Notes: generated by a model from the letters alone, not told the origin. Numbered from the stretch's first letter, positions 20,162-43,613 are shown. The stretch is DNA of 64,000 bases from a bacterium (GCA_029565675.1 JAKQNP010000052.1:1-64000); one strand, 5' to 3'. Made by a program: numbers and translations.

Positions 20162-20196
20162 ATTGTTCCCCTCGCAGTTCAATTGACCAAGATTCT

Positions 20197-22197: not shown

Positions 22198-22274
22198 AGC
22201 GCCCTCACTTCTTTTCCATCCACCATGCTGGCGGAGCACCTTTCGACGACTGTCCGCCCGCTCTTCTTGCTTTT

Positions 22275-24416
22275 CTATTCGCCATACACATCGATCAGCA
22301 CTTTGGCGATGATCGAATCCCAGATATAATTGGATGGGCATTCGAGCACGGGATAGTCCGGACTAAAGGATTCCCAAAAACGGTGATTCGTTGACAATTG
22401 CGATTTGACCGCCAGCATCATCTTGTCAGCCAGCTGCCGTTTTTCGGTTTCATAGCCATAGAAATCGAGCCCCTGCAGGACCATGTAATCCCAGAGCAGC
22501 CAAATCGGACCGTTCCAGCGGCAACAGCCGTCGACAAAAGGTGTGTAGTGCGGATCGTCCGCCGCCAGAGTGGGCACACCGTATGTCCGCCAGAACGAGT
22601 TCGGGTTCAACAGATGGCGGAGCAATTTTTCCGCGCGATCGGGCGGCGCTACCCTTGCCCACAAAGGCAAAAAACCGATTATCTCTTTGCGTTTCAGACT
22701 TTCTCCTTCAAAAAGGAAAGTGTTGTCGCTTTGAGCGGTGTGATAATAGAATTCATCCTCCGGGTCCCACAGAGTCTGGTTGATCAGCTCGGCGAGTTTT
22801 TGGTGTTCGCGCCGCCAGTGGTCCGCACCCTGTTTGTCGCCCAACTCGGTTGCCATTTTTTCCAGATAAAACATCTCATTGGCGACTTGCACGGAAAGAT
22901 CGAGCGCCTCCAGTTCAGCGGAAATGTCCCGGCCTTCATCTTCGCCGTCGGAAAAGAGCTGAAAGACCACATTCCAGCCATCGCGCACATTTTCGATGAT
23001 GCCATATGGTCCCCATTCAAACAGACCGTCGCGATCGTCGTCTCTTTCGCGTTGCAAATAACCGACAAACGCGGCGCCCGAGCGATAGGCCTCGTTTAAA
23101 AATTCTTTATCGCCGGCGACGCGATAGATCTCCCAATTGGTCCAGGTGAAAAAAGGTGCCGAGGTCGTGGCTTTGCCTTCGTGGGGATAGACCTGCGGGC
23201 CGCGCGGACCGTGCCGATAGCCGATCAGCCCATCGGCATACTGCTGTTCCATATAGATGCGCTGCGAATCCATGGCGGATTGAGGATCGAGATAGACATA
23301 GGGCAGCATGGAAAGCGATTCGTGCATGACCTGATGGCCGTGCCCCCACCCCCATTGCGGCTCACGCGAAAAAACGTAAAAATTATAGCGGGTCTTACCG
23401 GATGGCGGCAGCATACACTGGCGCACCAGATTAAAAGCTCCGAGGTAAACCATTTTATCCTGTCGGGAAAGGTTCAACCGCGGAACAGAGCGAAACAAAT
23501 CGGCATTTGCATCGAGGTGTTTCTGCAGAGGAGTCAGCAGGGCTGCATCGACGTCCTGAACGAGTTCCGATGGGGGTTTCTGCTCGTCCTGTACACCGCG
23601 GACGAAACGGATCCTGACCGTCATTCCGGGTTGGAGGTCGATATTCTTATGCAGCGCAATGAAATTCACTTTTCCCTTTTCGATTTCATTCAGATGGAGC
23701 ACATTTTCGTGCACCTTGCTCAGGCGTTTGGCGGCAAAATAGAACTGCTGCAAATCGCAGCCGACAAAACCGCCGAAAGAGTCAGGCCGTTCGCTGCATG
23801 CCAGCATGTCGCGAAAATCGGTCGGGTAGCCTCGGGTCGCGTACAGATTGCTGTGCAGGCGCTCGAGGGGTTCATGGTGTTCGGCGACAGTGCGGCCGGT
23901 TGCGGAGTCAAAATCAGCGAGGACAAAAGCCTCCTCGTTTTTGAACAAAAGCGGATAAAGAACAACCGCAAAGGCGCGGTTCGCCGCATTGGTGATTTCG
24001 AGATCGATCACCGCGGCCGCTGAACTGTAAACCAGAAAGGTTTCGTTGACGCGTACATCCTGAAACGGTTCATAGTTCAGGACCGCCATATCCGGAAACG
24101 AAGCAGTCACCACGGGAGCCTTGTAAAAATCTCGAATCCGGCTGAATACGACATTGTTGATCTTCCAGATGACCGTGAATTCGCCGGCAAACTGACTGGA
24201 ATAGGTAATGGGCTTTTCGGGGGAAAAATAATCCATAAAATAGGCCTTGTCGGCAAAAAAACGCGACCTTTCCATTGCAGCGGCATATGTGGTGAAAAGC
24301 GGGTCATTGGCAGTCGCATCGATTTGAAGATAGGAATCGCGGATTTGTGCAATCGGCTCAGCGTATAGCGATAAAAATCCCAAAACCAGCAGATCAATCA
24401 AAAACCATCGTTTCAT
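22275..24416 (-). CDS. Secreted GH63-like glycosidase
   Basis: Has a signal peptide, an N-terminal beta-sandwich (about 20-290) and a six-hairpin (alpha/alpha)6 catalytic domain (about 300-713). Segments PQWGWGHGHQVMHESL, DRDGLFEWGPYG, KRKEIIGFLPLW and RWNGPIWLLWDY fit GH63 and related clan GH-G alpha-glucosidase/mannosylglycerate hydrolase-type enzymes. It is paralogous to the larger enzyme two genes upstream, which carries an extra module. It starts within the stop codon of the GH172 gene (ATGA overlap), so the two are translationally coupled. The exact linkage cleaved is unknown. Confidence 0.8.
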   Translation of the reverse strand: MKRWFLIDLLVLGFLSLYAEPIAQIRDSYLQIDATANDPLFTTYAAAMERSRFFADKAYFMDYFSPEKPITYSSQFAGEFTVIWKINNVVFSRIRDFYKAPVVTASFPDMAVLNYEPFQDVRVNETFLVYSSAAAVIDLEITNAANRAFAVVLYPLLFKNEEAFVLADFDSATGRTVAEHHEPLERLHSNLYATRGYPTDFRDMLACSERPDSFGGFVGCDLQQFYFAAKRLSKVHENVLHLNEIEKGKVNFIALHKNIDLQPGMTVRIRFVRGVQDEQKPPSELVQDVDAALLTPLQKHLDANADLFRSVPRLNLSRQDKMVYLGAFNLVRQCMLPPSGKTRYNFYVFSREPQWGWGHGHQVMHESLSMLPYVYLDPQSAMDSQRIYMEQQYADGLIGYRHGPRGPQVYPHEGKATTSAPFFTWTNWEIYRVAGDKEFLNEAYRSGAAFVGYLQRERDDDRDGLFEWGPYGIIENVRDGWNVVFQLFSDGEDEGRDISAELEALDLSVQVANEMFYLEKMATELGDKQGADHWRREHQKLAELINQTLWDPEDEFYYHTAQSDNTFLFEGESLKRKEIIGFLPLWARVAPPDRAEKLLRHLLNPNSFWRTYGVPTLAADDPHYTPFVDGCCRWNGPIWLLWDYMVLQGLDFYGYETEKRQLADKMMLAVKSQLSTNHRFWESFSPDYPVLECPSNYIWDSIIAKVLIDVYGE

Positions 24417-26359
24417 TGTTTGCTCTCGCTTTGTTTGGTGGCGGACACGGTGAGAGAATGGTCCAGATCGAGAACTCTGGCGTAAAAAGAGTAACCGCCG
24501 AAATTGTTTTCAATTTTCAGCAGCAGCTTGTTCCACCCTTTTTTGAGTTTGAGGGGAATCCGCTCATCGTCGGGAGCGGCGATGCGAACCTGCAAGAACC
24601 GATAAAGTTGCTCATCGTTTAAAAAGACCTTGCTGCCGTCATCAGAGCTGAACAAGAGCGGAACGGTTTGTTTTTTTGGCGAATAGATCCAGGTCAAGGC
24701 ATAGGCGGTCACCAATTCGTAAGGTTTGAAGAGGTTGTGCAGGCTGAAATAGCCCGACATTGGAGTTTGGATTTTTTGCCACCGCACCGGCTGCCCGTCG
24801 ACGCCGCTATAGACGGCATCGAGATCGATTTCTCGTTCCGGCGGATAGATTTGATCGATGCCGAGCCGTTCGGTTTCCGATTTCCGCGGATTGGGAAACG
24901 GCCCGATGACCTGCCACTCGGGGATGAAAACCCGTATGGGTGTCAGGTGCAGGGCATCGAGACCGACGCGCACCTCCGAATCGGTGTTAGAGTGTCCTGC
25001 GATCGCAAATTCGATTTCGATATAGCCATTTTTCGCCAAAAGAGGTTCCAACTGGCAATCACCTGCCAACGCGATTTCCTGGGCTTCTCCCTCAAATGCG
25101 GCGATTTGCCTGCCCAAATGGTTGATGGTCACTTTACCATATTCCGGTCCTTTCGTATAGAACAGTCTCGCCTGATAGCGATCCTCCAGCGCTGGAATGC
25201 GCAACACAAAGCGATCGCCCGTCTTTCCAGCGAGCAAAAGCTGTTTGCCGCCGCTCCATTCGGCGCCGAAATCGGACATGTCGACCACTTGGGCATCGAT
25301 CGCCGGTTTGGGCGCCAGCAGTGTTTCCGCCTCAAGGCAACCGGGCGGCACAACGGTTCTCAGAGGAATCCGCAAACTCGCTTTAAGCATGGCCGAAAAA
25401 GGTTTATGCGGCTCTTGCTGGTACCAGTAGGCGGTGCTGGAAAAGTCGGCGATCTCTTCATTGCCATGACCGTGCTCGATGGTAAACAGGAGAGATGAAC
25501 GGAAAGGAATCGGATCTTTGATATGCAGGCGATAGGCGGCGATACGCGCCAAAGAATCGTCCTTGACGATCAGCCCGTGATAGGGGGCAAAAAACTCACC
25601 GCGATTAAAGTACCAACCGCTGGTGAAATAGTCTTCAGTACCGGTGCCGTAAATGGACGGCTGCGATTCGCCGTCGACAGTTACCATTTCATCGCCTTCC
25701 AGATACCAAAAATTCCCCCGCAAACCCTGCATGGACATATTGAGACCGACAAAATGACCGCTGCCTTTTGCTTCCAGGACGGTATAATTTTGAGGGTAAT
25801 CGGTGCGGGAGTCGCGTCGCCAAAAGGCGTGGAAATATGCGGTATCATCGGGAAGCGGGTCATCGAGGCGTTGCCAGCCGATATGGTAATAAAAGGCATA
25901 GACCTCTCGACCGGTCTGGTTTTCCACTTCCAGACGCGCTGATTTCCGGAACGGCATGGGGAAATAGCAGTAATAACCGCCGCTGGTCATTCCGACATAT
26001 TCGGAGACGGTTTGATGATAACCGAATCCGGTGCCGAAAAAATCCCCGACCGGCACCTCGACGGACGGCTGCGCTTCGCCGTCCCAGAACATCCGCAACA
26101 CGATTCGCCGCAGAAAATGGGGATCGCGGGAATCGATGGTGATCCAGATCCGCACGATACGGCCCGGGCCCTGCAAATCGGCGATCACAGCGGTTTCACC
26201 TGCCTGCAGATTGATGCGGTCGTTGTTACCGCCGCTGGTGTCGGTGCTGGAAACCTGCACCAGCTTGTAGGGTTTCAACTTTTCGAGGGCGATTTGGTCA
26301 TCCGGTTGGGCCCACAGAGGGCAAACGGCGATGACGGCGATCAGCAAAGCCTTTTTCAT
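24413..26359 (-). CDS. GH172 (DUF2961) family enzyme
   Basis: The region about 15-370 matches DUF2961/GH172 (SGGNNDRINLQAGE, GRIVRIWIT, VPVGDFFGTGFG, YGTGTEDYFTSGWYF), a family with alpha-D-arabinofuranosidase, difructose-anhydride and galactofuranosidase activities. About 370-650 add beta-sandwich domains, the last resembling a PA14/CBM-like fold (IPEWQVIGPFPNP, PLLFSSDDGSKVFLND). The signal peptide begins at MKKALLI, chosen over an upstream start because GAGGTGG precedes it. It is exported and coupled to the downstream GH63-like gene. Confidence 0.88.
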   Translation of the reverse strand: MKKALLIAVIAVCPLWAQPDDQIALEKLKPYKLVQVSSTDTSGGNNDRINLQAGETAVIADLQGPGRIVRIWITIDSRDPHFLRRIVLRMFWDGEAQPSVEVPVGDFFGTGFGYHQTVSEYVGMTSGGYYCYFPMPFRKSARLEVENQTGREVYAFYYHIGWQRLDDPLPDDTAYFHAFWRRDSRTDYPQNYTVLEAKGSGHFVGLNMSMQGLRGNFWYLEGDEMVTVDGESQPSIYGTGTEDYFTSGWYFNRGEFFAPYHGLIVKDDSLARIAAYRLHIKDPIPFRSSLLFTIEHGHGNEEIADFSSTAYWYQQEPHKPFSAMLKASLRIPLRTVVPPGCLEAETLLAPKPAIDAQVVDMSDFGAEWSGGKQLLLAGKTGDRFVLRIPALEDRYQARLFYTKGPEYGKVTINHLGRQIAAFEGEAQEIALAGDCQLEPLLAKNGYIEIEFAIAGHSNTDSEVRVGLDALHLTPIRVFIPEWQVIGPFPNPRKSETERLGIDQIYPPEREIDLDAVYSGVDGQPVRWQKIQTPMSGYFSLHNLFKPYELVTAYALTWIYSPKKQTVPLLFSSDDGSKVFLNDEQLYRFLQVRIAAPDDERIPLKLKKGWNKLLLKIENNFGGYSFYARVLDLDHSLTVSATKQSESKQ

Positions 26360-26366
26360 TTCCACC

Positions 26367-29120
26367 TCACGGATTGCTCGGGCCTGTGCCGTTGTAGACA
26401 TCCAACAGCATGCGGTTGATGATCCCTGCCCAGATATAGGTTTTGTGATAACCAGCCCATTGATCGTCGGGGCTGTAAAATTCCCAAAAATTGTGATCTT
26501 TTTTCAGCTGCGCGATCATGTTGGCTGCGACGCGTTCGGTAAGCTGACGCGCCAGATCGGCATGCCCGTATTGCAGCAAACCGTGGTGGATGAGATAATT
26601 CCATTCCACCCAGACTGGTCCGTTCCAATATCCTTTGGCGTTATAGTAGGAATCGTCGGCTGCCAACGAGGGGACGCCGAAGGGACGCCAGAAACGGGTG
26701 GTATCGGTCAGGGTTTGCAGCAAAAGCTCGGCGCGCTCCTGGTCAACAATGCCGGCCCACAAGGGCAGAAAGCCGATGATTTCGCGCCGTTTCAGATCAT
26801 TGGGAGTTTTCCAGGTAAAATCGTGGTCGTTTTTATCGACATGATAAAAGAAAGCGGTTTCGCTGTCCCAGAAAATCTCGTTGATTTTTGCCGACAGTTC
26901 ATCGGCAAATCGGCGATAGCGCTCGGCTTCCCCGGCATATCCCAATTCATCGGCCATGGCTGCCAGAGCTTTGGCTTCCATTACCAGCATGGTGTTGACG
27001 TCGACACCTTCGAAATGGCTCGGCCAATCCACCTCATCCCATACCGCTACCAGCGCATCGCGCACGCATTCCAGCACAGCGTGGGCACCCCACTCAAACA
27101 GTCCGTCGCCGTCGCTGTCCCGTTGTGAAGTGTAATATTCGAAAAACGCCTTGCTGGAGGCATACATCTCGCGCAGAAAGGCGGCATCGCGGGTAATTTG
27201 ATAGACCATCCAATTCTGCCAGGCATACCAGGGCGCCGAAGAGGTCAGCTGGTTGTTGTGCTCGATGATCTCGTCCAGGTAAGCACCGGTGCGATAGTTG
27301 ATGTAGCCGTTTTCGTACTGTCTTTCTCGATAGATGCGCTGCGAATCCATGGCGCTTTGCGGATCCATATGGGCATAGGCCAACATGGTCAGGCTCTCGT
27401 GAAAAACCTGGCCGCCGTGGCCCCATCCCCAGGTCGGTTCGCGCGAAAAGACATACCAATTGTAGCCGCATCGGTTTTCCGGCGGCAGCATGACCTGGCG
27501 CATCAGCGAATAGGCGCTGTGATAGAGCATCTGAACGTCGGGATCGCTGCAGTTGAGCGCGGGAATCTCGGCGAAGAGTTTTTCATTTTCGTCGACAAAG
27601 GCTGCCAATTCGGTCTCTTTCAGCGCGAGCGCCTTATCGATGGTTTGCCGCCTTTCCTGCTCATCGCGGGCAAAACAGCGCATTTCACGCAGGCGATAGC
27701 GCTCACCCGGTGCCAAACGAAGCGTTTTTTGCGCAGCAATAACGCGGGCAAAATCGGAGACAAAAGTCGTGATCTGATCCGGATATTTGACATCGGTGAG
27801 AAATTCGCTGAGCGCAATATTGGTCACCTCTTCGGTAGGCATGGACATTTGACCATCCGCATAGACAGCGGTGACCACATAGCCGTAAATCTTGTCTTTA
27901 CTGAGATTTTTGTCGGTGAAAAATGTACGCTCGATCCTTTCAGCCAGGCATTCATAGACCCCACCGCTTCGGTAATCGCGGCGATAGACATTGTAGACCG
28001 CTCCGGGTTGTCGCTTCCAGAAAAGCCGAATTTCGGTGCCGTCGCCCCAGACGTCTTTTCTGAATCCCTCGGGATGTGGAGCCGTTGTGACGCGCTGCAA
28101 TTGCATGTCGCGACGAATCTGATCGACGGAATCGATCCCGGTGATCCGGCCCGCAAGCGAGCCGATTTCTCCAGAAGTGCCGCAGGCGAAAATAAGGGTA
28201 TAACGATCGTTGTCTCGCAGATCGCCAAAGTTACCCAATTCGATGCCATAATAACCATTGCCACGGATATTCAAATCCGTCCCCCCCCATCGAGGCGCTG
28301 TTTCAGTCAACAGTCGGGAACGGTCGCCGTTGCGCACCACCATGAAGCGCGCGTCCGGCGATTTTTTTGTGCAGCGTTCGCCCTTGCTGTCCGTCACACG
28401 TCCCCAAAGATAGCAGCGCCGCGGCTTTTGCACATCGACAACCTGAGGCAACTGGATGTTGCCCCACTCGTAACTGCGAAAGCTGGTCACCCGGTCCATG
28501 CTGTCTGAAAAAAGCCAGCCGTCAAGAACATTGGCAACATAAGGCACATCGTGGCTGAGCACCCAACTGTCCGGCAGTTCTTCGTGCTCGAAAAGAACCA
28601 GATCGTTGGATTTTTCCGCCTGGATCTTCTCAAAGGTGCGGTAGGAATTTCGCAAAAAAGTGTAAAAGGTCAGTTCCTTTTTCTGCCGACCGGTATTGGT
28701 GATTTCGATTTCGCGCAGAGCGAGATCGGAACTGTGGGCGAGGAAAAAAACCTGGACTTGCACATCCGGCAAAGGCTCGCAGTCATAGCGGACCAGGTCG
28801 GGATAGGAAGTGGTGATCACCGGCGGGTTGACCATGTCGCTGACGGCATAGACATAATCAGCACCCATCTTAAACGCCATGCACCAGTCACCTGCGGTGT
28901 CGGTGGTAAAGTCGGCCCCCCGGCTGGAGTCATAAAAAACCCATTCAAATCCCTGATCCAAAGTGAACTCGGATCGCTGCAGAGCCGGTGCAAAGGTCGC
29001 AAATATCGGATCGTCTTTGGTCGCGTTCAAATGGGACAAAAACGGTTCCGCGGCATCGCCAACCGAAACAAGGATCAGCAAAATTGACCAGGCAGACAAA
29101 ACAGTCCGAATAAACCTCAT
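26367..29120 (-). CDS. Secreted GH63-like glycosidase with inserted ELGNF-FN3 module
   Basis: A paralogue of the smaller GH63-like protein in the same operon. The N-terminal beta domain (about 25-235) is interrupted by an insertion at about 237-435. This contains an unnamed domain (MVVRNGDRSRLLTETAPRW...YYGIELGNFG) and an FN3-like domain. The beta domain then resumes and the (alpha/alpha)6 catalytic domain fills about 515-910 (REPTWGWGHGGQVFHESL, DGDGLFEWGAHA, YWNGPVWVEWNY). The same inserted pair begins two neighbouring zincin-like proteins. The start is ATG preceded by AGAGGTGG; upstream GTGs are less likely. It should act outside the cytoplasm. Confidence 0.78.
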   Translation of the reverse strand: MRFIRTVLSAWSILLILVSVGDAAEPFLSHLNATKDDPIFATFAPALQRSEFTLDQGFEWVFYDSSRGADFTTDTAGDWCMAFKMGADYVYAVSDMVNPPVITTSYPDLVRYDCEPLPDVQVQVFFLAHSSDLALREIEITNTGRQKKELTFYTFLRNSYRTFEKIQAEKSNDLVLFEHEELPDSWVLSHDVPYVANVLDGWLFSDSMDRVTSFRSYEWGNIQLPQVVDVQKPRRCYLWGRVTDSKGERCTKKSPDARFMVVRNGDRSRLLTETAPRWGGTDLNIRGNGYYGIELGNFGDLRDNDRYTLIFACGTSGEIGSLAGRITGIDSVDQIRRDMQLQRVTTAPHPEGFRKDVWGDGTEIRLFWKRQPGAVYNVYRRDYRSGGVYECLAERIERTFFTDKNLSKDKIYGYVVTAVYADGQMSMPTEEVTNIALSEFLTDVKYPDQITTFVSDFARVIAAQKTLRLAPGERYRLREMRCFARDEQERRQTIDKALALKETELAAFVDENEKLFAEIPALNCSDPDVQMLYHSAYSLMRQVMLPPENRCGYNWYVFSREPTWGWGHGGQVFHESLTMLAYAHMDPQSAMDSQRIYRERQYENGYINYRTGAYLDEIIEHNNQLTSSAPWYAWQNWMVYQITRDAAFLREMYASSKAFFEYYTSQRDSDGDGLFEWGAHAVLECVRDALVAVWDEVDWPSHFEGVDVNTMLVMEAKALAAMADELGYAGEAERYRRFADELSAKINEIFWDSETAFFYHVDKNDHDFTWKTPNDLKRREIIGFLPLWAGIVDQERAELLLQTLTDTTRFWRPFGVPSLAADDSYYNAKGYWNGPVWVEWNYLIHHGLLQYGHADLARQLTERVAANMIAQLKKDHNFWEFYSPDDQWAGYHKTYIWAGIINRMLLDVYNGTGPSNP

Positions 29121-29132
29121 GATCACCACCTC

Positions 29133-31880
29133 TTATTTCACCAGACTCATTTTTTTAACCGCTGTTTCGCCCTTTGTATCGACAAGCCGATAAAAATAGA
29201 TGCCATTGGCTGCCGGTTTGCCGAATGCATCCGTGCCATCCCACTCGATCTGATGCAAGCCAGAGCTCAAACGCGAATGAATGAGCGTTTTAACATGGCG
29301 GCCCGCCAAGTCAAAAACCGACAAATCGACGAATTCCGATTGCGGCAGGTGGAATTCGATTCGAGTGCACGGATTAAAGGGGTTTGGATAGTTTTGTTGC
29401 AAATGCAGCTGTTCCGGCACTGCAGCCGGATCCTGCAGAGCGACCGCTGCAGAGCTTTGCAGGCTGAACTCCACAAATTCATACAGGTCAAAGGTGGTCG
29501 CCCAGTTGCTTGAATTGCCGTTTACATTGTGGTAGATAATATTCAAGGCGATCTTGTCGCCGGCATTCAGATCGAGACCGGCATAGGTCGATCGGGGGAT
29601 CGCCATCTCGATCTGCGACACCGGCGAGCTGCAGGTGGTCTGCAGGAGCACCTGCGACGGATCGATGACCCGGCGTTTGAATTTGGCGGCATAGGCGGCA
29701 TCGGTATCCCACATGCCTCCCGCTCCACCTTGAGAAAGTGAATAATTCTTGACTTCTGTGCCGGCATCCCAGGATTGAAACGAGTGAAAACCGTTCGACG
29801 TCGGGTAGATCGAGATTACGGTGTTGCCCGATGACCACCACCAACCGTCGGCATCAAAATCGAAAAAGAGCTCGGGAGTGGCGATAACCGGCAACTTGAG
29901 AGCGATATAGAGCCGTTCCGCATCGTATGCCAAATAGAGTTCAGGAGCAAAATCGCTCTGCCGGTAGGCGGCAAAAGCAGTGGCACAGGTCCACCCTTCC
30001 TCGATAACCCCGTCGACAACAGGCGAAAAAAACGGCACCTCTGTTCGTACCGGATAACGCGGATAAGCATCCTGCCCGTCCGGCAAACCATCGCCATCGC
30101 TATCCGCGCACGCTGGATCGCTGCCCCGATAGATACCGTCGAGCGCCTCCTGCCGGTCATCGAGGCCGTCGGCATCGGTGTCGTGCTTGTGCGGATCGCT
30201 TAAGAAGCGCTTTTCATCCAAAGGCAAGCGCGGATCCTCGTCCGGAAACCGATCGCCGTCCGCATCAGCGGTTTCGTAAAGATCTCCCCATTCGGTCAGC
30301 AACTCTTCATAGGCTTGAAAATGGCGAAACATTTTGCCCTGAAAACTGAAATGCTCCCCACAGGCAACCGGAAAAGCCCATGGCACATCCCCGTGGTAGA
30401 ATTCGGGATAGCCATTGGTATCGTAAAGCGCATCCAGCGCATGTTGCACCTCGTGGACAAAGATCCAGGTGAGTCCCATGTTGGCGGAATCGTGACGTTC
30501 CGGGTACCGCACACCCGTAGACACCGGCCAATGGGTGTGGGAAAATCCGGTTGCGCGTTGCGGACCGGGCAGGTTCAAAACCGGCGTACCCACCGACCAG
30601 TAGCCGTTGATTGCAGGCATGATGCGAAACATCACATCGTATTGGGTGTTGATCACTCCCAGAGTTTGTAAATCCCCGGCCGCTTGCTGAAAGTAGAGGC
30701 CGTTGGGATCGCTGTAGCTCTTGTACTCGTCGATTTCATAGTAAAAGAGTTCCATATTGAGCTTGAAACCCGAATTGATCCAATAAAAAAGACGCGCCTT
30801 TTCGATCATATGGCGGATATCGGCAACCGCGGCGGCGTCGATTTTGCCGCGATTGGTGTTTTTGTAGATCAGAACTGCAGTTTTCAGGTTGGCATAGGTG
30901 TAAAGGCCGGCATTGGGACCCGTGGTCTTAACCAGAAGCTCCTGCGATTCGCCGTATTCCTCAACAGCAGAGATTCGACCTTTTACAATATACCGATATT
31001 CGGTGTCCGGAGAAAGCCGGGTATCGGTATAGACCGTATCGAGACCGGTAAAGGCAATCGGACCACCCGGATAATCGCCCGAGGTTGAGCGATAGATGTT
31101 ATAGCCTGTAATTTTTTCACCAGAAACCGCTGACCAACAAAGGGTGACATTGCGCGTGCCAGGTACGGACGACAAATTGAGGGATTGATGGAAGCGGAAC
31201 ACATCCGCCGAAGGCATGCTCAGCAGACCTTCGGCATTGACGGCAAACAGAATATATCCGTAACGGGCATCTCCGGCAACATCGCTGTCGATAAAATGGT
31301 CGGCATCGATGCCCTCGGCCAGCAGCTGGTACTCCATACGCGATCTGCCGTCCGCCAAGGTATCAGCCAGATCTCGGCGATAGAGAGCATACGTCATCTG
31401 GACATCGCGGCGCCACTCTATCCGGTTGGTACCGTTTGCCAGCGCTGACAAGCGGATATCTTGTGGCGACGGCGGGATGTTCTTTTTCTCCAGATAGAGC
31501 AAAAGCGGAAAGCGATGCCAGGGCAGCGCAAATACCCGTTCGCTGAGCATGCCCTGTTGGCCGGAGATAGCGGAAGTGAACAGAACACTGACCGTGTCTC
31601 CTGTTTGAACGGCGGTTGTAAAATTTCCCAATTCGACCCCGAATACTCCTTTCCCGTTGATGTTCGGGTCGGTGTTCGGCTTCCATCTCGGAGCATCATG
31701 GGTGAGAATTCGGCTTCGATCATGGTTCATAAAAACGATATAACCCGCATTCGGGGGCTGGTCTTTGCAAACCGAACCATCCTGTGAATAGACAAGATTT
31801 TCATAATAGATCAAATCATCTGTCTGGGCAAATCCCCAGGCGAAGCATAGACACAAAAACAAAATGATGTTGTTCTTCAT
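29133..31880 (-). CDS. Secreted T9SS zincin-like protein with ELGNF module, TSP3 repeats and CBM9-like domain
   Basis: A 915-residue protein. Signal peptide 1-19; ELGNF domain about 24-115; two FN3-like domains about 125-320; a putative metalloprotease domain about 325-535 with HEVQH at 476-480 (HExxH). Calcium-binding thrombospondin type 3-like repeats follow at about 538-610 (DTDADGLDD, DSDGDGLPDGQDAYP), then a CBM9-like carbohydrate-binding domain at about 612-805. The last 90 residues are a sorting domain (QQNYPNPFNPCTR...KMSLVK). GAGGT precedes the ATG. It may attack the peptide part of a glycoprotein while anchored to its sugar. Protease activity is inferred from the motif only. Confidence 0.75.
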   Translation of the reverse strand: MKNNIILFLCLCFAWGFAQTDDLIYYENLVYSQDGSVCKDQPPNAGYIVFMNHDRSRILTHDAPRWKPNTDPNINGKGVFGVELGNFTTAVQTGDTVSVLFTSAISGQQGMLSERVFALPWHRFPLLLYLEKKNIPPSPQDIRLSALANGTNRIEWRRDVQMTYALYRRDLADTLADGRSRMEYQLLAEGIDADHFIDSDVAGDARYGYILFAVNAEGLLSMPSADVFRFHQSLNLSSVPGTRNVTLCWSAVSGEKITGYNIYRSTSGDYPGGPIAFTGLDTVYTDTRLSPDTEYRYIVKGRISAVEEYGESQELLVKTTGPNAGLYTYANLKTAVLIYKNTNRGKIDAAAVADIRHMIEKARLFYWINSGFKLNMELFYYEIDEYKSYSDPNGLYFQQAAGDLQTLGVINTQYDVMFRIMPAINGYWSVGTPVLNLPGPQRATGFSHTHWPVSTGVRYPERHDSANMGLTWIFVHEVQHALDALYDTNGYPEFYHGDVPWAFPVACGEHFSFQGKMFRHFQAYEELLTEWGDLYETADADGDRFPDEDPRLPLDEKRFLSDPHKHDTDADGLDDRQEALDGIYRGSDPACADSDGDGLPDGQDAYPRYPVRTEVPFFSPVVDGVIEEGWTCATAFAAYRQSDFAPELYLAYDAERLYIALKLPVIATPELFFDFDADGWWWSSGNTVISIYPTSNGFHSFQSWDAGTEVKNYSLSQGGAGGMWDTDAAYAAKFKRRVIDPSQVLLQTTCSSPVSQIEMAIPRSTYAGLDLNAGDKIALNIIYHNVNGNSSNWATTFDLYEFVEFSLQSSAAVALQDPAAVPEQLHLQQNYPNPFNPCTRIEFHLPQSEFVDLSVFDLAGRHVKTLIHSRLSSGLHQIEWDGTDAFGKPAANGIYFYRLVDTKGETAVKKMSLVK

Positions 31881-31887
31881 ACAAACC

Positions 31888-32667
31888 TCAAAGATTCAAC
31901 CATGCGGAAATGGTCATCCAAACACCCAAACCAATGATGATGACCGATCCGATGATCGGAATGATGTGAATACGATTGTCAAGGAGTTGGTGTTGCAAGA
32001 GATGAGAAGCCTTGATCATGATCACCCCGATAGCGGTCAGGACAGCAGCCAGCCCGAGGCTGAAAACTACGATGATCGCCAGACCCAGGGCGATCTTGTG
32101 CAGGGAAATCGCCAGGAACAAAATAACCAGGGCTTTCGGACAGGGAACGATACCGCTTGACACGCCCAGCAATACGGTTTTCTTGAAACCCAATTTTCCG
32201 TCCGCGTTCGGAAAAGGATGAGAGTTTGAATGGGGATGGGTATGGACAGAGGTATGGGTATGCGGGTGATCAGAGCTGTGCACATGGGAATGGGCTGTTC
32301 CCTTTTTCCAGTTCGCCATCCGTGTCACGAGCAGCCACAAACCGATCAACAGAATCAGAAGGCCTGAAACGAGCGATATATATTTGTTGAGCGTTTCAGA
32401 CCAAAAAAAATCGGTCAATACCAGAGCGATCAAGCCAATTGCAAAAACACTGAGCACATGCGAAAGTGTGAAGCCGATCGTCAGAATCAAAACATCCTTC
32501 AAACGGCCTTTGGTGCCGATCAGATAGGCGGCCATCAAAGACTTGCCGTGCCCCGGGCCGAGAGCGTGGAAGGCTCCGATGACAAAAGCTGCCGCCAAAA
32601 CGATTAGCAGCGTCAACGGTTCCAGACCTTCGGAATAGAGAACTTTATTGATAGTGTCTTGACTCAT
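31888..32667 (-). CDS. NicO-family nickel/cobalt transporter
   Basis: An inner-membrane protein with about six to seven helices. FHALGPGHGKS near the N-terminus and GVSSGIVPCPKALVIL in the second half are NicO/RcnA family motifs for divalent metal transport. Between them lies a cytosolic or periplasmic loop with about ten histidines (about 123-152) that probably binds metal. It overlaps the upstream EF-hand protein gene by 23 bases and lies between two genes for putative zinc-dependent secreted proteins. Direction of transport and metal are not readable. Confidence 0.88.
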   Translation of the reverse strand: MSQDTINKVLYSEGLEPLTLLIVLAAAFVIGAFHALGPGHGKSLMAAYLIGTKGRLKDVLILTIGFTLSHVLSVFAIGLIALVLTDFFWSETLNKYISLVSGLLILLIGLWLLVTRMANWKKGTAHSHVHSSDHPHTHTSVHTHPHSNSHPFPNADGKLGFKKTVLLGVSSGIVPCPKALVILFLAISLHKIALGLAIIVVFSLGLAAVLTAIGVIMIKASHLLQHQLLDNRIHIIPIIGSVIIIGLGVWMTISAWLNL

Positions 32668-33424
32668 GACCCTCTTTCACTGAAAATGAGATACGCATCT
32701 TGGGATAGCTGGACTCGTGCATTTGCAGCAAAGTCTGATCATAAAAGACACCGGAAAGGGTTACCATTTCCGCTTTTCTTCGAATATATCCCGGGAATGC
32801 GGAGACAAATCGAAAAGGATCAGTGGTATGCATCTTGAATTGCAGCACACGGCCGATGGCTTTTTCCTGCTCCCGGCTAAACTCAACTTCTTCCTGAGCC
32901 AGGGAGATCAGCAATGATCCATTCACAAAAAACATTTTAGGCGGAATCGAGAGGTGGTGTTCGCCGCTGGTGCAGCTGTCGATTGCCGTCTGAAAACGCA
33001 TGCGAACTTGCAGCGAAGGTGCCAGCAGGCTGTCCTGCTGAATCGACGGAAATTCGACCTGCACACAGGTGAAATAAATCGAAGCGGTATCGAGCGCCAC
33101 CGCATGGCTCTCGAGTTCCATGTTCAGCCGGGTTTTGTAGCGGCTGGAGAATGAGTCGATCTCGGCATCGCTCAGCCGAGAATCCTTATCGGTGTCGATC
33201 ATCAATTTGATGTGCGGAACGATCTGGCCGAGATACTCACTGCGATAGTCGAGCACCAGCAGGCCGGGAATCAGTTGTGCAGCGATGGTGTCTTTGATCT
33301 CTTCCGGGCATTCCGACAGCGTATAGTAATGGGCCGAAACCGTGGCAACCGGTCCAAAGCACAAGATCAGCACCAGCAAAATCCATAGACCTCTATAAAT
33401 TTTTTGGTTGGGACGATTATACAT
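32645..33424 (-). CDS. Exported EF-hand-like companion of NicO transporter
   Basis: A 259-residue protein with an N-terminal signal or anchor segment (LWILLVLILCFGPVATVSA). An EF-hand-like loop, DTDKDSRLSDAE, lies at about 77-88. The rest looks like a periplasmic beta-rich domain. Proteins of this type are often encoded just before NicO or HupE-type metal transporters, and the 23-base overlap with the transporter gene supports joint function. A metal-handling role is inferred. Confidence 0.65.
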   Translation of the reverse strand: MYNRPNQKIYRGLWILLVLILCFGPVATVSAHYYTLSECPEEIKDTIAAQLIPGLLVLDYRSEYLGQIVPHIKLMIDTDKDSRLSDAEIDSFSSRYKTRLNMELESHAVALDTASIYFTCVQVEFPSIQQDSLLAPSLQVRMRFQTAIDSCTSGEHHLSIPPKMFFVNGSLLISLAQEEVEFSREQEKAIGRVLQFKMHTTDPFRFVSAFPGYIRRKAEMVTLSGVFYDQTLLQMHESSYPKMRISFSVKEGHESRHYQ

Positions 33425-33448
33425 CCGCTGGTATCCTTTGTAGAATTT

Positions 33449-36100
33449 TTATCGCAGCAACAAGATCTTGCGAAATTCTGTTATCTGTTCGCTTTGCAGC
33501 ACAGAGAAATAGAGACCGGACGGCAATTCGGTTGTCCACTGGATCCGATGAGAGCCGGCGGACAGGTGTCGGTCCACGAGTGTCGCCACCAACTGTCCCG
33601 CGAGATTGTAAACAGACAGTGTAGTTTTTCCGTTGCGCGGCAAGGTAAAGCGAAATTCAGTGGTACCATTGAAGGGATTGGGAGCGTTTTGTTGGAATGA
33701 AAAACGGCAGGCCGAATCCCCTACACTGTCGATGCCGACGCCGGTTTGCGGAATCGAGTACCAACGGCAAATCGCTAGTGTATAGCGAGCCGAGTCCACT
33801 TCACCGCGCCAATAGGCGACGTTAAAGTCACAAATGTCCATAAATTCATAGGCCACTCTTTCCGGCAGAGCGATGCGCAACAACAGCGAGGCGTTGGTTC
33901 CGACGACGTGAGGTGCGTCGGAATAGAGCGTTGAAAAAGGATTTTCCGCATTCAAGTCCGTATGATACTCGGGTGAGACACGATGTGGAAAGCGAAAGAT
34001 CCCCTCCGCATCGGTTTTGGCCTTGAATTTTGCCTTGTTCGGCACGACGTTGTCCTGTTTCTGGTAAATCCACACATCGGCATCGGCAACAGGAATACCT
34101 GAGGGGTCCACAACCAGCAGCAAATTTTCTGTGGGAATATCGGCGAGATACTCGCCGTAAAAACCGCGCCGTTTGGCCAGATTGCGCGCCAGGGCACCGG
34201 CGGAATGGTCCGAAAATCCGGCACGGAAGTCCGAATGCATCAGTGCTTTCTGCCGGCTGGAGTAGTACAGGACCTCAAAGACGATCGGCGTCAGCGGTAT
34301 TCTTGCGCCCGTGCGCGGTTCGATTACCTGCACCTGATGGAGATGGACATCCTGGTTGTAGAGATCGATCAAGCCGAGCTGATGGCCGAGTTCATGCAAC
34401 AACGCCCAATCGATGCCGCCTTCGTTTTGCAGTACTGTTGTTTTAAAATAGTCATAGCTGTCGTTATCGCCCATGAATCCCCATTGACCATCCCAAAGCA
34501 TGGCGTCAGGCGCATGCGTGCCGCCTGAAGGCAATTCCCCGCGTTGATAGTAACTGACGGTGTCAAGAAAAACCGATTCAAATACCGCTTGTTCTCCCTG
34601 AGGATAATCCGCTTCGCGAATGAACCGGTTCAGATAGTCCAGATGGTAACGCGACCAATCTTCAAAAGAGTACGAGCCGACGGGATTGAGATGGGTATCG
34701 AACAGCTTCTTTATCGGTTCCTCGACATGAAAATGAAACGACAATGCGTTGCTGCGAATGGTCAGCATGTCATTTTGTTCTGTCATCTGATCGTCCGTGC
34801 CGACGAGCCGGCAGGTGATCGATTTCGGCGTCTGGGGCCAGGGCAACTGAATCGTTGAACGTCCTTTCTGCCCGGCCAACAATCCGGATTGGTTTTCGGT
34901 TTTGACCACAAGTGAATCGACAGACCATTCGATTGCAAATGCAGAAACCGCAGCGCCGCCCTTGTTCTGAAAAGTCGCTGTAAAAGTGACGAGCTCTCCG
35001 GCTATCGGAGCGTGTTTGAGGTTAAGAGTCGACGGATCAATTCGTGGATTGTAACCGGATGGCTCATAAATGACAGAGAAACGAGGGTATTTGGGCGATC
35101 GCGAGAGAAACAAGAGATCCAGATCGCTCAGATTCGCGACTGGCGGCTCGGCCACAACCTGAATCGTTGCCGGGTCGCTGGCATTGCCGGCGGTATTGAC
35201 AGCCACGATTTGGAAACGATATGAAGCGAACAGCTCGACGGATTGCTGATAACTCGGGTTTCCGTTTTCGCTCAGCAGCGAAACTTCTGCAACTGAATCG
35301 CGATAAACGCGAAATATCACATTTTCCTGATCCGGATGAAACCACGACAGAGCAAGAGTTGTGTCTGATCCGATTTCCACTGCAGTCTGGATGTCGCTGA
35401 CAGGCTCAGGAAAATCGATCTGCGGGCCAGAATGACGGCCCAGAATTCCGTCTTCTCGCGCCAGAAGGATATAGCGGTGCCGGCCGGTCTGACAGGTTGA
35501 ATCGATAAAACTCGATTGCACCAGGCGGGCGGCGATCCGTTCGTAAATATGGGGATCGATGCCGTTCGGCAAAAGAGGTTTGACCGTGCTGCGGAAAAGA
35601 TCGTATTGAACACCCACTTGCACGCGCCACTGCAGGTGCCGGTGACCGGCAGCATCGATAGTCAGGGAGAAATCTTCCACGGCCGCTGGCAGATCCTGGT
35701 GATGCAAAATCAGGTGCATTGGCCAGCGCTGCCAGGGAATCGAAGCGACGACATCCAAGGCGACGACCTGCTCTTCGGTGGCAAAACAGGAAAAAACCGT
35801 GTGCACCGTATCGCCGGGCTGCAGCGAGGGTTGGACAAAATTGCCCAATTCGACACCGAAATAGCCCTTGCCGCTGATGTTCTCGTCTCGGCTTTCGCTC
35901 CAACGGGGAGCATTTTCAAAGAGCACATGTGAAGTATCTCGGTTGATAAAGACCAAAAATTGTGCTTCCGGCTGGCGGTATTCGCACAATTGCTTGTTTT
36001 GATGAGCGATGAAATTGAGAAAATAGAGAAAATCAGAACCTAGCACAAAAACAGGAACAGCACTGATTAGAAAGCAACAGAAAAAAAACAACCTCTTCAA
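33449..36100 (-). CDS. Secreted T9SS metzincin-like protein with ELGNF module and CARDB domain
   Basis: About 883 residues. After the signal peptide come an ELGNF domain (about 25-115), two FN3-like domains (about 120-320) and a CARDB-like adhesion domain (about 360-450). A putative metalloprotease domain (about 455-650) carries HELGHQLGLID, the HExxH plus downstream Gly/Asp pattern of metzincin-type enzymes. An Ig-like/carboxypeptidase-regulatory-like domain (about 660-750) and a sorting domain (APNPFNGT...KILLLR) follow. I favour the TTG start because AGGTGG stands at the right distance; a GTG nine bases upstream directly follows the porV-like stop. The substrate is unknown. Confidence 0.75.
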   Translation of the reverse strand: MKRLFFFCCFLISAVPVFVLGSDFLYFLNFIAHQNKQLCEYRQPEAQFLVFINRDTSHVLFENAPRWSESRDENISGKGYFGVELGNFVQPSLQPGDTVHTVFSCFATEEQVVALDVVASIPWQRWPMHLILHHQDLPAAVEDFSLTIDAAGHRHLQWRVQVGVQYDLFRSTVKPLLPNGIDPHIYERIAARLVQSSFIDSTCQTGRHRYILLAREDGILGRHSGPQIDFPEPVSDIQTAVEIGSDTTLALSWFHPDQENVIFRVYRDSVAEVSLLSENGNPSYQQSVELFASYRFQIVAVNTAGNASDPATIQVVAEPPVANLSDLDLLFLSRSPKYPRFSVIYEPSGYNPRIDPSTLNLKHAPIAGELVTFTATFQNKGGAAVSAFAIEWSVDSLVVKTENQSGLLAGQKGRSTIQLPWPQTPKSITCRLVGTDDQMTEQNDMLTIRSNALSFHFHVEEPIKKLFDTHLNPVGSYSFEDWSRYHLDYLNRFIREADYPQGEQAVFESVFLDTVSYYQRGELPSGGTHAPDAMLWDGQWGFMGDNDSYDYFKTTVLQNEGGIDWALLHELGHQLGLIDLYNQDVHLHQVQVIEPRTGARIPLTPIVFEVLYYSSRQKALMHSDFRAGFSDHSAGALARNLAKRRGFYGEYLADIPTENLLLVVDPSGIPVADADVWIYQKQDNVVPNKAKFKAKTDAEGIFRFPHRVSPEYHTDLNAENPFSTLYSDAPHVVGTNASLLLRIALPERVAYEFMDICDFNVAYWRGEVDSARYTLAICRWYSIPQTGVGIDSVGDSACRFSFQQNAPNPFNGTTEFRFTLPRNGKTTLSVYNLAGQLVATLVDRHLSAGSHRIQWTTELPSGLYFSVLQSEQITEFRKILLLR

Positions 36101-36109
36101 AATATCCAC

Positions 36110-37036
36110 CTAAAAAGAGAGTCCAATACCAACCCGATGTGCGCCGCCCAAGAGCGAATAGTCGCTGTAGGAATAGTCGAATCGTGCCTGACTTCCCACG
36201 ACGGGCACCTGAATGCCGCCGCCGAAGGTAAATTTGGCAATTTCGTGGTTCAAATTGTAACCGCCCCGCAGAAACAACAACTCTTTCAGCGCCCATTCCA
36301 TGCCCAACAAGCCAATCGGCACACCATCATTGGGTTTGATGGCATTGACGCTGACCAAAAGTTGTTGATTCGGAAGCTGCAAGGCGTTCATGCTCATGCC
36401 AAATGTAAAGTTGGTCGGCGGCGGATAGGATTCATTGACAAATTTGATTTCCGAGCCAAAATTTGCGATTTTCATGCCGAAGCGAAAACCGCGATAGTCG
36501 GTGCGATAGAGAACCGCAATGTCGGCGGTCACTGCACTGGCGGTAAAGTCAGAGTAAAGGGAGAGATGAATGGTGTTGATCGAGCCGCCGATCGAAACCC
36601 GGTCGGTGAGAAAGCGCGAATAGGCCAAACCGATGCGATAATTGCCGGCATAGAAGGATTCCCCCGTGCCGTCCGGCTGCAAGGGCGTGGTCACAAACAT
36701 CTCGTCGGTATAGAGAGCGGTAATCGAGACGGCAAACGTGCCCACAAGGTCATTTACAGTATAGGCGCCTGCAACATAGTCATGGCGGATGTCGGCAAAC
36801 CATTCGGTGTGGGTAAAGGCCAGGTCCATTCTGGGGATCCAGGCAAGGGCAGCGGGATTGTAATAGGCGGCTTCAGCCCCTTCGACCACACTGATATAAG
36901 CCCCTCCCATGGCGGCCGCACGCGGACTGGTTTCGATCTTTAAAAATTGCGCGTCGGTGCTGCCGGGGCGCTCATACTGTCCGTATGCCGTGACCAGCAT
37001 GGATAAAAGCAGAATGAGGACGATTCTTTGCAACAT
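36110..37036 (-). CDS. PorV/PorQ-like outer-membrane beta-barrel protein
   Basis: A 308-residue exported protein. FLKIETSPRAAAMGGAYISV and AAYYNPAALA are typical of the PorV/UPF0164 group of FadL-like barrels, whose Bacteroidetes members shuttle T9SS cargo to the attachment complex. Alternating hydrophobic beta strands continue to a C-terminal GIGLSF. The start is the ATG of MLQRIV with GGGAG upstream. It sits directly between four T9SS cargo genes (two on each side), suggesting a dedicated cargo shuttle for this locus. Confidence 0.78.
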   Translation of the reverse strand: MLQRIVLILLLSMLVTAYGQYERPGSTDAQFLKIETSPRAAAMGGAYISVVEGAEAAYYNPAALAWIPRMDLAFTHTEWFADIRHDYVAGAYTVNDLVGTFAVSITALYTDEMFVTTPLQPDGTGESFYAGNYRIGLAYSRFLTDRVSIGGSINTIHLSLYSDFTASAVTADIAVLYRTDYRGFRFGMKIANFGSEIKFVNESYPPPTNFTFGMSMNALQLPNQQLLVSVNAIKPNDGVPIGLLGMEWALKELLFLRGGYNLNHEIAKFTFGGGIQVPVVGSQARFDYSYSDYSLLGGAHRVGIGLSF

Positions 37037-37213
37037 GGCGTCAACTCCCGTTAACCATAAACAATGACTCAAAGGCGTTCTGAACAGATACGCCTCTTGT
37101 TCAACCCTTTTTGTCTAAGAAACCAGACCAATCGCAACAAAGCCTGGTAATTTGATGATCGGATGCCGATTAACGTCGTTCATTTCGACTGGCCCGGCAG
37201 CCGTTCAGCCGAT

Positions 37214-38980
37214 CTATTTGATGATGATGAACTTGCCCGTTTGAACATTGGAGTTGTTCAAATCTTGTACCGTAAAAAGATAAATGCCGCTGGACAAAGC
37301 CTGGCCGATGCTGGAGGTCAAATTCCAGTCTTCAAAGCCTTTGTCGGGATTGTCGTGTCGGATCTGGTCAATCAGATCGCCTGCCAGCGTGTAAATTTTG
37401 ATTTCGCATTTTGCCGGCAGATTGATGAACTGAATGCGTCGATCCTGTTCCATCCATCTGTCACGGCTTCCGCCCGGTTTTTCCCAGGGTGGATTGTAGC
37501 TGTTGTAGCCCAAATCACCGCGATAGGGATTGGGAACCACGGCAACCTTGCCCACGGTCTCCGGTGAGGCAGTACCCGGTATGATCGTGATGGCATTTGC
37601 TTTCAGGCTGGTTTCCTGACTGGGAAACTGGCTTGCCGGGTCGGGTTTGGAGAAAGCGGTCAGGGCGTAATAATACTCGACATTGTTGAGCAAGCCAGTG
37701 TCGACATATTCATATTCCAAGCCGGTGTTATAGCCAATCTCATTGTTCGGAAGATCGTACTCGGCCAAAAGAGTCCAGGGGCCGTCGGTGCTGACCGTAC
37801 TTTTGTACAATCGATAGCCTTCGAAAGGCTGGGCTTCTCCATCGCCGCGATAGGGATCTTGGTACATCTCAGGATTGTTGTCCGGAGTGGGAGGCCAACT
37901 CAGACGGACCATCTTGTTATCGATGCTGTAGCTAAAAGTCGGCACCGGTGGCGGTGAAGGCACGCGAAAATTCTTGCTGGCCAGGAAATCGATGTATTCG
38001 GCATTGGCCAGCAAGCCGTCCATGCCGAATCCCAGCACTTCAGCCATGATAAGATGCAGCGTATCGCCGACTGCGAGACGTGGAATATAGCCGAACGCCA
38101 ACATGATGTGTCCGCGCGCAGGATCGACGCGGTCTTGCATAATCAGGTTTTGCGACATTTCGGCATAGAGGTCGACATCGCGATTGACCAAATTTTCGTG
38201 CTCATAGTATTTCCATGTCCAGATCATGTCTTCATCTTTGGGCTCGATGATTTTATAACCGATCGGGGAAATCGCAGCGCCGTCATTGCCGGCCGCTTCA
38301 TCCTCGGCAACCGTCATCTGCTGGTTGGGAAAAAAATAGACGTATTCATCGATAAAGTTATCTGAGGCGTTGATAGTGCCGATCTCACTGTGCATCCAAA
38401 AAGCGATATAGACATCGACAAGATCGTGCCGGGTAGGTGTAATATAATAGTTGAACAAAATAAACTCATCCAACGGTGCGGAGGACCAGGCATAACTGGT
38501 CTGAATGACGTCGAGGTAGAGTGGCTTGTGGTCATCGATGTTGAGCAGGTTGTAATCGCTGTATTTGCAGACAAAGTCCTGGTCCGAGACGCCGACATAA
38601 CCGGGCCAATAGGGTATGTTGGCCGTATCGCTCTTGCCGACGACCCAGATGGTATCGTCTTCGGCGGCGGTAGGATAGAATTCGTGCGGCGTGTAGTGGG
38701 TTTTGGTCACCGAAACCAGCGTATCACCATCGGGATTGATCGCCCCAATCCACAATCCGCCCTGATAGAGGTGTTCCTCCTTGCTGCCGGGAGGAAATTC
38801 ACAATAGACCAAACCCGGGAAATCGGTCAATGCCGGATCCAGGGTGCCCATATTGGTGAGCACCTGACGCACTTTGCCGACGTTGTGAACTTTATAATCG
38901 AGATTGGTGAATTGCGCAAAAAGGCTGGAGGTCAACAGCAAAATAGATATGACTATTTTTACACCGACTTTCATATTCAT
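37214..38980 (-). CDS. Secreted T9SS protein, copy 2 of tandem paralogues beside SusC
   Basis: A 588-residue protein with a signal peptide, a unique N-terminal region (about 25-345: LDYKVHNVGKVRQVLTNMG, GGLWIGA, YVGVSDQDFVCKY, QTSYAWSSAPLDEFILFNY), an FN3-like domain (about 350-470) and a C-terminal sorting domain (VVPNPYRGD...KFIIIK). The function is not recognised. The same motifs, in the same order, occur in the adjacent gene upstream. Because it follows a SusC-like receptor where SusD would be expected, a surface glycan-capture role is possible. Confidence 0.68.
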   Translation of the reverse strand: MNMKVGVKIVISILLLTSSLFAQFTNLDYKVHNVGKVRQVLTNMGTLDPALTDFPGLVYCEFPPGSKEEHLYQGGLWIGAINPDGDTLVSVTKTHYTPHEFYPTAAEDDTIWVVGKSDTANIPYWPGYVGVSDQDFVCKYSDYNLLNIDDHKPLYLDVIQTSYAWSSAPLDEFILFNYYITPTRHDLVDVYIAFWMHSEIGTINASDNFIDEYVYFFPNQQMTVAEDEAAGNDGAAISPIGYKIIEPKDEDMIWTWKYYEHENLVNRDVDLYAEMSQNLIMQDRVDPARGHIMLAFGYIPRLAVGDTLHLIMAEVLGFGMDGLLANAEYIDFLASKNFRVPSPPPVPTFSYSIDNKMVRLSWPPTPDNNPEMYQDPYRGDGEAQPFEGYRLYKSTVSTDGPWTLLAEYDLPNNEIGYNTGLEYEYVDTGLLNNVEYYYALTAFSKPDPASQFPSQETSLKANAITIIPGTASPETVGKVAVVPNPYRGDLGYNSYNPPWEKPGGSRDRWMEQDRRIQFINLPAKCEIKIYTLAGDLIDQIRHDNPDKGFEDWNLTSSIGQALSSGIYLFTVQDLNNSNVQTGKFIIIK

Positions 38981-38990
38981 CGCCCTTTGC

Positions 38991-43592: not shown

Positions 43593-43613
43593 AATGTGAC
43601 TCCTCAATAACGG

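Follow-up and report, generated by a model that had tools for sequence, protein, structure and literature searches.

An unnamed ELGNF module common to secreted proteases and a GH63-like glycosidase of one conserved locus type may target these enzymes to a shared ligand

Why should two putative proteases and a glycosidase that are encoded next to each other carry one and the same additional segment? The question is raised by proteins A, B and C, encoded in a 64,000-nucleotide stretch of bacterial DNA (the window; Table 1). The first-pass annotation described a segment of about 90 residues shared by these three neighbours; the three segments are indeed present, but their length is about 115 residues. 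When A's copy alone was used to search the whole 4.43-Mb genome (64 contigs), exactly three copies of the module were found, namely those of A, B (E = 1.7e-25) and C (E = 1.7e-13), and no further copy appeared up to E = 10. Given these values and the lack of other matches in the genome, the sharing of the module is far beyond chance.

Each segment had also been described as being followed by an FN3-like domain. A profile of 28 copies of this domain matched solved FN3 domains in the PDB (3mpc, E = 4e-11; 5g56, E = 2.5e-9), and the FN3 domain always follows the module, with which it forms a portable unit of about 210 residues. In A and B the unit is N-terminal, before what had been annotated as a putative zinc protease, and this description fits both proteins: A has the motif HELGHQLGLID and B was modelled as a metzincin. 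The proposed insertion into a GH63-like glycosidase was likewise recovered, as C matched MGH1-like_GH (E = 4e-48; PF22422, E = 4.3e-48) and PF03200 (E = 1.4e-17) and the module lies within its N-terminal domain. A C-terminal T9SS sorting domain is present in A and B and absent from C, which corrects an earlier note. The possibility that the module is itself such a sorting domain was rejected, as the module is N-terminal or internal and A and B have their sorting domain elsewhere in the chain. The genes of A, B and C are co-directional on the minus strand with small gaps or overlaps, an arrangement that is consistent with one operon.

Table 1. Positions of the module, its hosts and neighbouring genes. 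Positions refer to the window unless a locus is named.
Feature	Position	Strand	Basis or remark
Protein A: signal peptide, module, FN3, further Ig-like/CARDB region, putative metalloprotease domain (HELGHQLGLID), T9SS sorting domain	33449-36109	-	
ELGNF module in A (aa 26-141)	35687-36034	-	Profile alignment; AF2 model
FN3 after A's module	35393-35686	-	FN3 profile match
Catalytic region of A, HExxHxxGxxD motif	34079-34771	-	Pfam: no match
T9SS type A sorting domain in A	33461-33682	-	TIGR04183, E = 1.2e-7
Protein B: signal peptide, module, FN3 domains, metzincin-like protease (HEVQHALD), Asp-rich repeats, T9SS sorting domain	29133-31880	-	
ELGNF module in B	31473-31817	-	Sequence search with A's copy
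FN3 after B's module	31179-31472	-	FN3 profile match
Catalytic region of B	30228-30920	-	Predicted metzincin fold: AF2 and structure comparison
T9SS type A sorting domain in B	29148-29390	-	TIGR04183, E = 7e-7
Protein C: GH63-like glycosidase, module-FN3 pair inside N-terminal domain	26367-29129	-	T9SS sorting domain absent
ELGNF module in C (about aa 237-350)	about 28083-28418	-	Sequence search with A's copy
Complete insert in C (linker, module and FN3; about aa 208-437)	27819-28508	-	Not present in D (paralogue) or in the module-less C homologue of L141
(alpha/alpha)6 catalytic domain of C	26430-27386	-	PF22422, E = 4.3e-48
D: GH63-like paralogue of C without module (natural empty site)	22275-24416	-	Pfam, alignment to C
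DUF2961 (GH172-type) neighbour, module absent	24413-26401	-	Pfam
E: secreted, T9SS sorting domain, Big_2 domain, module absent; recurrent neighbour	20197-22341	-	Pfam/NCBIfam
GH127 neighbour, module absent	17708-20200	-	Domain scan
NicO-family transporter, between A and B	31888-32667	-	Domain scan
NicO partner, family not recognised, between A and B	32645-33424	-	Gene call
PorV/UPF0164-type outer-membrane protein, upstream of A	36110-37072	-	Domain scan
Paired secreted proteins J and K, encoded upstream; they recur in the locus and lack the module	37214-40769	-	
TonB-dependent receptor, N-terminal CarboxypepD_reg_2 domain	40779-43607	-	Domain scan
C25-like module hosts	L030:13845-16271, L130:3790-6105, L132:973-3345, L035:3526-5901		
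Proteins of ~800 aa near A's usual place	L017:6417-8897, L025:6271-8814, L026:188-2596, L136:8899-11313		Weakly similar to GH63-like proteins

That the segment corresponds to no named domain held in Pfam, in NCBIfam and among PDB sequences. Neither Pfam nor NCBIfam gave a match in 40 diverse members of the family, stray Pfam matches being found at E = 0.03 or worse only, and the segment was also blank in the scans of A, B and C. No PHROG matched, and a module profile yielded only chance matches among PDB sequences (best E = 0.61). Within the 40 members, no described CBM family was significantly matched in Pfam, and CarboxypepD_reg (PF13620/PF13715) matched 0 of 40 at E up to 1. Profile-profile comparisons of the module with the FN3 segments, and with the N-terminal domain of the TonB receptor of the locus (only two sequences), gave no signal. 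A link to HC7 (DUF3472) was discarded as too weak, its chains being low in the Foldseek list of the module and in the FN3 profile list. In the 40-member alignment Cys17, Glu62, Leu63 and Phe66 are invariant, and residues 40-66 (NAPRWxxxxDPNIxGxGxFGVELGNF) are the most conserved, with a mean entropy of 1.21 bits versus 2.08 elsewhere. The conserved Gly, Pro, Asn and Trp of this stretch could be structural rather than binding residues.

The AF2 model of A's module (pLDDT 91.4, pTM 0.85) was compared to known structures. The best Foldseek match was the Bacteroides fragilis protein 3hn5, at an E-value of only 0.023, and carboxypeptidase D was also found. The VIA structural aligner gave a best match of Z 8.2 over 82 residues (2.4 Å), and the neighbours comprised the teneurin TTR-like domain (Z 8.2), carboxypeptidase N (7.8), the TTL domain of human carboxypeptidase D (7.6), CnaB2 (8bdw; 7.2), a transthyretin-related protein (7.0) and the SusC N-terminal extension (6.8), where a Z of 7-8 is about the level of a common arrangement. 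Among the matches listed (Z 6.4 to 8.2), most were TTR, TTL, CnaB or HIU-hydrolase chains. Judged from the model, the module is probably a transthyretin-like (carboxypeptidase-regulatory) beta-sandwich, which probably makes it an unnamed family with an already known fold. Like the TTL/carboxypeptidase-regulatory domains (PF13620, PF13715) found in carboxypeptidases D and N, it occurs in secreted or surface proteins and is fused to peptidases, and its predicted beta-sandwich would be of their topology class. However, it differs from these domains in the absence of a sequence match in the 40 members, in the long 40-66 stretch with ELGNF and in having a glycosidase among its hosts. The CnaB/pilin-type isopeptide domains are similar in fold by the structure comparison, but the module, whose invariant residues are those given above, has no conserved Lys of the kind that forms the intramolecular bond together with Asn/Asp and Glu/Asp: none is found among the invariant or near-invariant columns of the 40-member alignment. 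The C-terminal Tyr-Arg-Gly-Ser motif of 5-hydroxyisourate hydrolase/transthyretin was present in 0 of 40 aligned members.

A census of 61 full-length or near-full-length host proteins yielded five sequence classes only, i.e. A (6 proteins), A' (9), B (13), C25-like (4) and GH63-like (29). The classes A (HELGHQxGLID) and A' (HELGHARYLID) are homologous to each other; in the HExxHxxGxxD/H motif His, Glu, Leu, His and Asp are invariant across both and the second Gly occurs in A only. On the basis of the motif HELGHQLGLID, host A would be of the metzincin type. In class B (HEVQHA(L/I)D) the HExxH residues are invariant, and the AF2 model of its catalytic domain (pLDDT 82.8) is predicted to have a metzincin fold: all 50 of the 50 matches listed were metzincins of the adamalysin, ADAMTS or TACE type (Z about 10-11), with a top comparison of Z 11.0 over 171 aligned residues at 4.0 Å. 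The catalytic domains of A (15 members) and B (13 members) had no convincing family match in Pfam, and their profiles matched PDB sequences at chance level only; they look like unnamed secreted metalloprotease families. In the fourth host the match to Peptidase_C25 (PF01364) was below the cut-off (E = 0.0057; 16.4 bits versus 23), and the patterns LLxGxFPVPW, MDLDG and PEI..RI recur. The sequence suggests that this host is a divergent C25 (gingipain-type) cysteine protease. One A-type gene (L030:8926-11432) lies in two reading frames, a 181-aa module part and a 680-aa remainder, and is a pseudogene or an assembly error. The proteins of ~800 aa encoded at or near A's place were rejected as hosts with a divergent module, as both HExxH and a module match were absent, even when unfiltered.

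The N-terminal beta-sandwich domain of the glycosidase is cleanly interrupted by the module-FN3 pair, an insert of about 230 residues. No such insert is found in the window's own paralogue D, and in the Ignavibacteria locus L141 a module-less C (L141:5106-7226) directly adjoins a module-bearing C and thus represents a natural control. Two forms of the GH63-like hosts were observed. The first has a T9SS tail (1016-1051 aa) and in most cases an extra Cys pair at positions 3 and about 60, and the second, which includes C of the window, is tail-less (914-963 aa) and probably periplasmic. The modules of the tail-less hosts form one clade (99/96 support). Since the module is kept in the tail-less form, it is independent of T9SS export.

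The module did not simply follow its host enzymes. In the module tree the copies of A, A' and B are interleaved, and a tree in which the B modules were forced into one clade was rejected (log-likelihood 79 lower, AU p = 5.4e-5), so that vertical descent with the host class is rejected for B. The clearest case is genome G517, in which the B module is nested within the A modules (100/94), while the modules of the C25-like hosts form one clade (98/88). In pairwise comparisons, A-type and B proteins were similar in their N-terminal parts (signal peptide, module, FN3) and in the tail, and no similarity was detected between their catalytic regions. The A and B modules of the same genome are 57.4% identical versus 50.9% when permuted (0/5000 permutations as high, permutations that ignore phylogeny), an excess that the window's own pair (39%) does not show. 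As the B modules are not one clade and no similarity of the catalytic regions was detected, at least one transfer of the module between non-homologous enzymes has taken place.

The surroundings of the module are also conserved. Across phyla we found a repeated gene order of TonB receptor, K/J, PorV-type protein, A or A', and B, with C, E, GH172, GH127, D or F nearby. Nearly all module loci have a TonB-dependent receptor, K/J, PorV-type protein, GH172, GH127, D or E as neighbours, the exceptions being a few C copies that are away from receptor genes on the stretch seen. The suggestion that the module is dedicated to this locus therefore agrees with its occurrence in nearly always the same type of receptor/PorV/GH locus. 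The module is missing from all further recurrent proteins of the locus that were compared, namely J, K, TonB receptor, E, GH127, GH172, F, G and D. Protein E, with its T9SS tail and Big_2 domain and without a recognised catalytic domain, recurs across phyla (L021, L024, L027 and L040). Between the two metalloprotease genes of the window, the NicO gene overlaps the gene for a secreted-type partner (pair at 31888-33424). The pair accompanies the locus in L016, L128, L130, L133 and L135, and may function in metal supply to, or clearance from, the metalloproteases. The window also encodes a 924-aa protein (11789-14563) whose C-terminal domain is FGE-sulfatase-like and of which about 690 residues match nothing in Pfam; its relatives adjoin C or B in L029, L136, L139 and L141.

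When 84,980 species genomes were scanned with one strict peptide pattern, 27 confirmed loci were obtained. These were labelled KSB1, Calditrichota/Caldithrix, Ignavibacteria/Melioribacteraceae, Bacteroidetes, Neomarinimicrobiota, WOR-3 and, in one case, Deltaproteobacteria; two had no phylum label. The genome of the carrier labelled Deltaproteobacteria was placed in the same phylum as a Calditrichaceae bin. Whole-genome profile searches, in which the phylum names are the labels of the centre records, detected the module in 8 of the 82 genomes from the phylum to which the window belongs, in 13 of 40 Calditrichota, in 5 of a 395-genome sample from the phylum of the Ignavibacteria centre, and in 7/245 and 2/147 genomes from the phyla of the Neomarinimicrobiota and WOR-3 centres, respectively. 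Hits outside the three window proteins, about which the first-pass annotation had asked, thus exist well beyond them, in five phyla. All confirmed matches belong to FCB-group phyla wherever placement was possible. The T9SS translocon gene SprA/Sov was present in 16/16 carrier or related genomes tested versus 0/14 controls, which, together with the nearly uniform locus type, is in line with the proposed confinement to T9SS-bearing lineages and glycan loci. Besides B and C, one Calditrichota locus (L127, genome G494) has genes for a PorV-type protein, K and a TonB receptor. Its carrier is probably Caldithrix abyssi, and a cultured carrier may therefore exist.

We favour, with a probability of roughly 0.45, the reading that the ELGNF module is a non-catalytic targeting module for a ligand common to different enzymes of one locus. 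Targeting is the best explanation for a module that two protease types share with a glycosidase, that this glycosidase can do without, that does not depend on export and that keeps to one locus type. A targeting or binding module dedicated to this locus, as proposed in the first-pass annotation, is the best reading, in which we infer both the binding of a ligand and its identity. The module-FN3 unit would serve one T9SS-exported system with a TonB-dependent receptor, a PorV-type protein, glycosidases and proteases, being placed N-terminally on two metalloprotease families and the C25-like protease and inserted into the GH63-like glycosidase. Its conserved face (residues 40-66) would bind a ligand common to all host enzymes. 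Most likely, this ligand would be the substrate that the enzymes have in common, a glycan or glycoprotein imported by the locus, so that one molecule would undergo both proteolysis and deglycosylation. Since the tail-less, probably periplasmic GH63-like proteins keep the module, the ligand is more likely a soluble common substrate than a dock on the cell surface. The suggestion of a glycoprotein or protein-bound glycan comes solely from the GH127, GH172-type, GH38 and GH63-like genes that share the locus with the proteases. That one recombining, locus-specific module steers non-homologous proteases and a glycosidase to one ligand, and so couples peptide and glycan cleavage, is a more tentative proposal that we consider possible, if doubtful. 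Like the CBMs and lectin-like accessory domains of secreted glycosidases, the module is a small predicted beta-sandwich that is non-catalytic and portable between catalysts. Unlike CBMs, it has no Pfam CBM match and occurs on proteases of two catalytic classes, and carbohydrate binding is putative.

The main rival explanation, which we regard as rather unlikely, is a structural module that aids folding or extracellular stability of its host without a specific ligand and was spread by recombination between neighbouring genes. Carboxypeptidases D and N supply some of the nearest folds with their TTL domains, and TTL domains of carboxypeptidases are usually viewed as folding or stability elements. 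Moreover, neighbouring genes with similar ends readily exchange sequence, and like the modules, the T9SS tails of these proteins are more alike within a genome (54.6% versus 43.0%, with permutations that likewise ignore phylogeny). However, a folding aid specific to a catalytic domain is not expected to be shared by a GH63-like glycosidase, metalloproteases and a C25-like protease. The glycosidase does without the module in D and in the module-less C of L141, and E, GH127, GH172, J and K, the other secreted proteins that recur in the locus, lack it.

An unlikely alternative is that the module docks to a locus protein, such as the receptor, J/K or a surface scaffold, and assembles an enzyme complex at the surface in a cohesin-dockerin-like manner. 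The usual presence of receptor, PorV-type and J/K proteins in the locus would provide such partners, and the greater likeness of protease modules within than between genomes would fit a partner specific to each genome. In the window, however, the A and B modules are only 39% identical, no more alike than an average pair and thus without a same-genome excess. In addition, the module is also carried by tail-less, probably periplasmic GH63-like proteins, and a partner domain of matching distribution was not identified.

Removal of the module at protease activation, as a pro-domain or inhibitor like the N-terminal profragments of other secreted proteases, appears very improbable: the module does directly follow the signal peptide in the proteases and has the invariant Cys17, but this residue usually co-occurs with Cys83, which makes a disulphide likely rather than a cysteine switch, and a class-specific inhibitor is unlikely in the middle of a glycosidase and before a C25-like protease. 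Least probable of all is a secretion or sorting signal for the locus, which would fit the T9SS translocon in all 16 tested carriers and close relatives but not the ordinary T9SS tails of A, B and E, of which E has no module, nor the tail-less GH63-like proteins that have one.

In the literature on the module, on DUF3472 glycopeptidases and on KSB1 T9SS peptidases we found no description of the module. More than 150 genes for peptidases and more than 60 for glycosidases are reported in the Calditrichota genome paper (PMC5317091), and the module is not mentioned in the passages of that paper that were covered. The nearest analogue is the set of KLIKK proteases of Tannerella forsythia, which have a C-terminal domain and a short region in common and unique N-terminal profragments (PMC4404884). 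Both cases comprise clustered secreted proteases of different catalytic classes with a common non-catalytic domain. In contrast to the KLIKK proteases, the common part here is an N-terminal or inserted module-FN3 unit that is found on a glycosidase as well. The fold and the idea of an accessory module are therefore already known, whereas an unnamed family dedicated to one locus and common to unrelated catalysts appears to be new.

Our results define an unnamed domain family on at least four enzyme scaffolds in a conserved locus. The secreted enzymes of its carrier phyla KSB1, Calditrichota, Ignavibacteria, Neomarinimicrobiota and WOR-3 are mostly uncharacterised. The naturally module-less enzymes and the probable cultured carrier make the function of the module directly testable. 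If binding of a shared ligand is true, the ligand would name the substrate of the whole locus and would give a handle on glycoprotein degradation by these bacteria.
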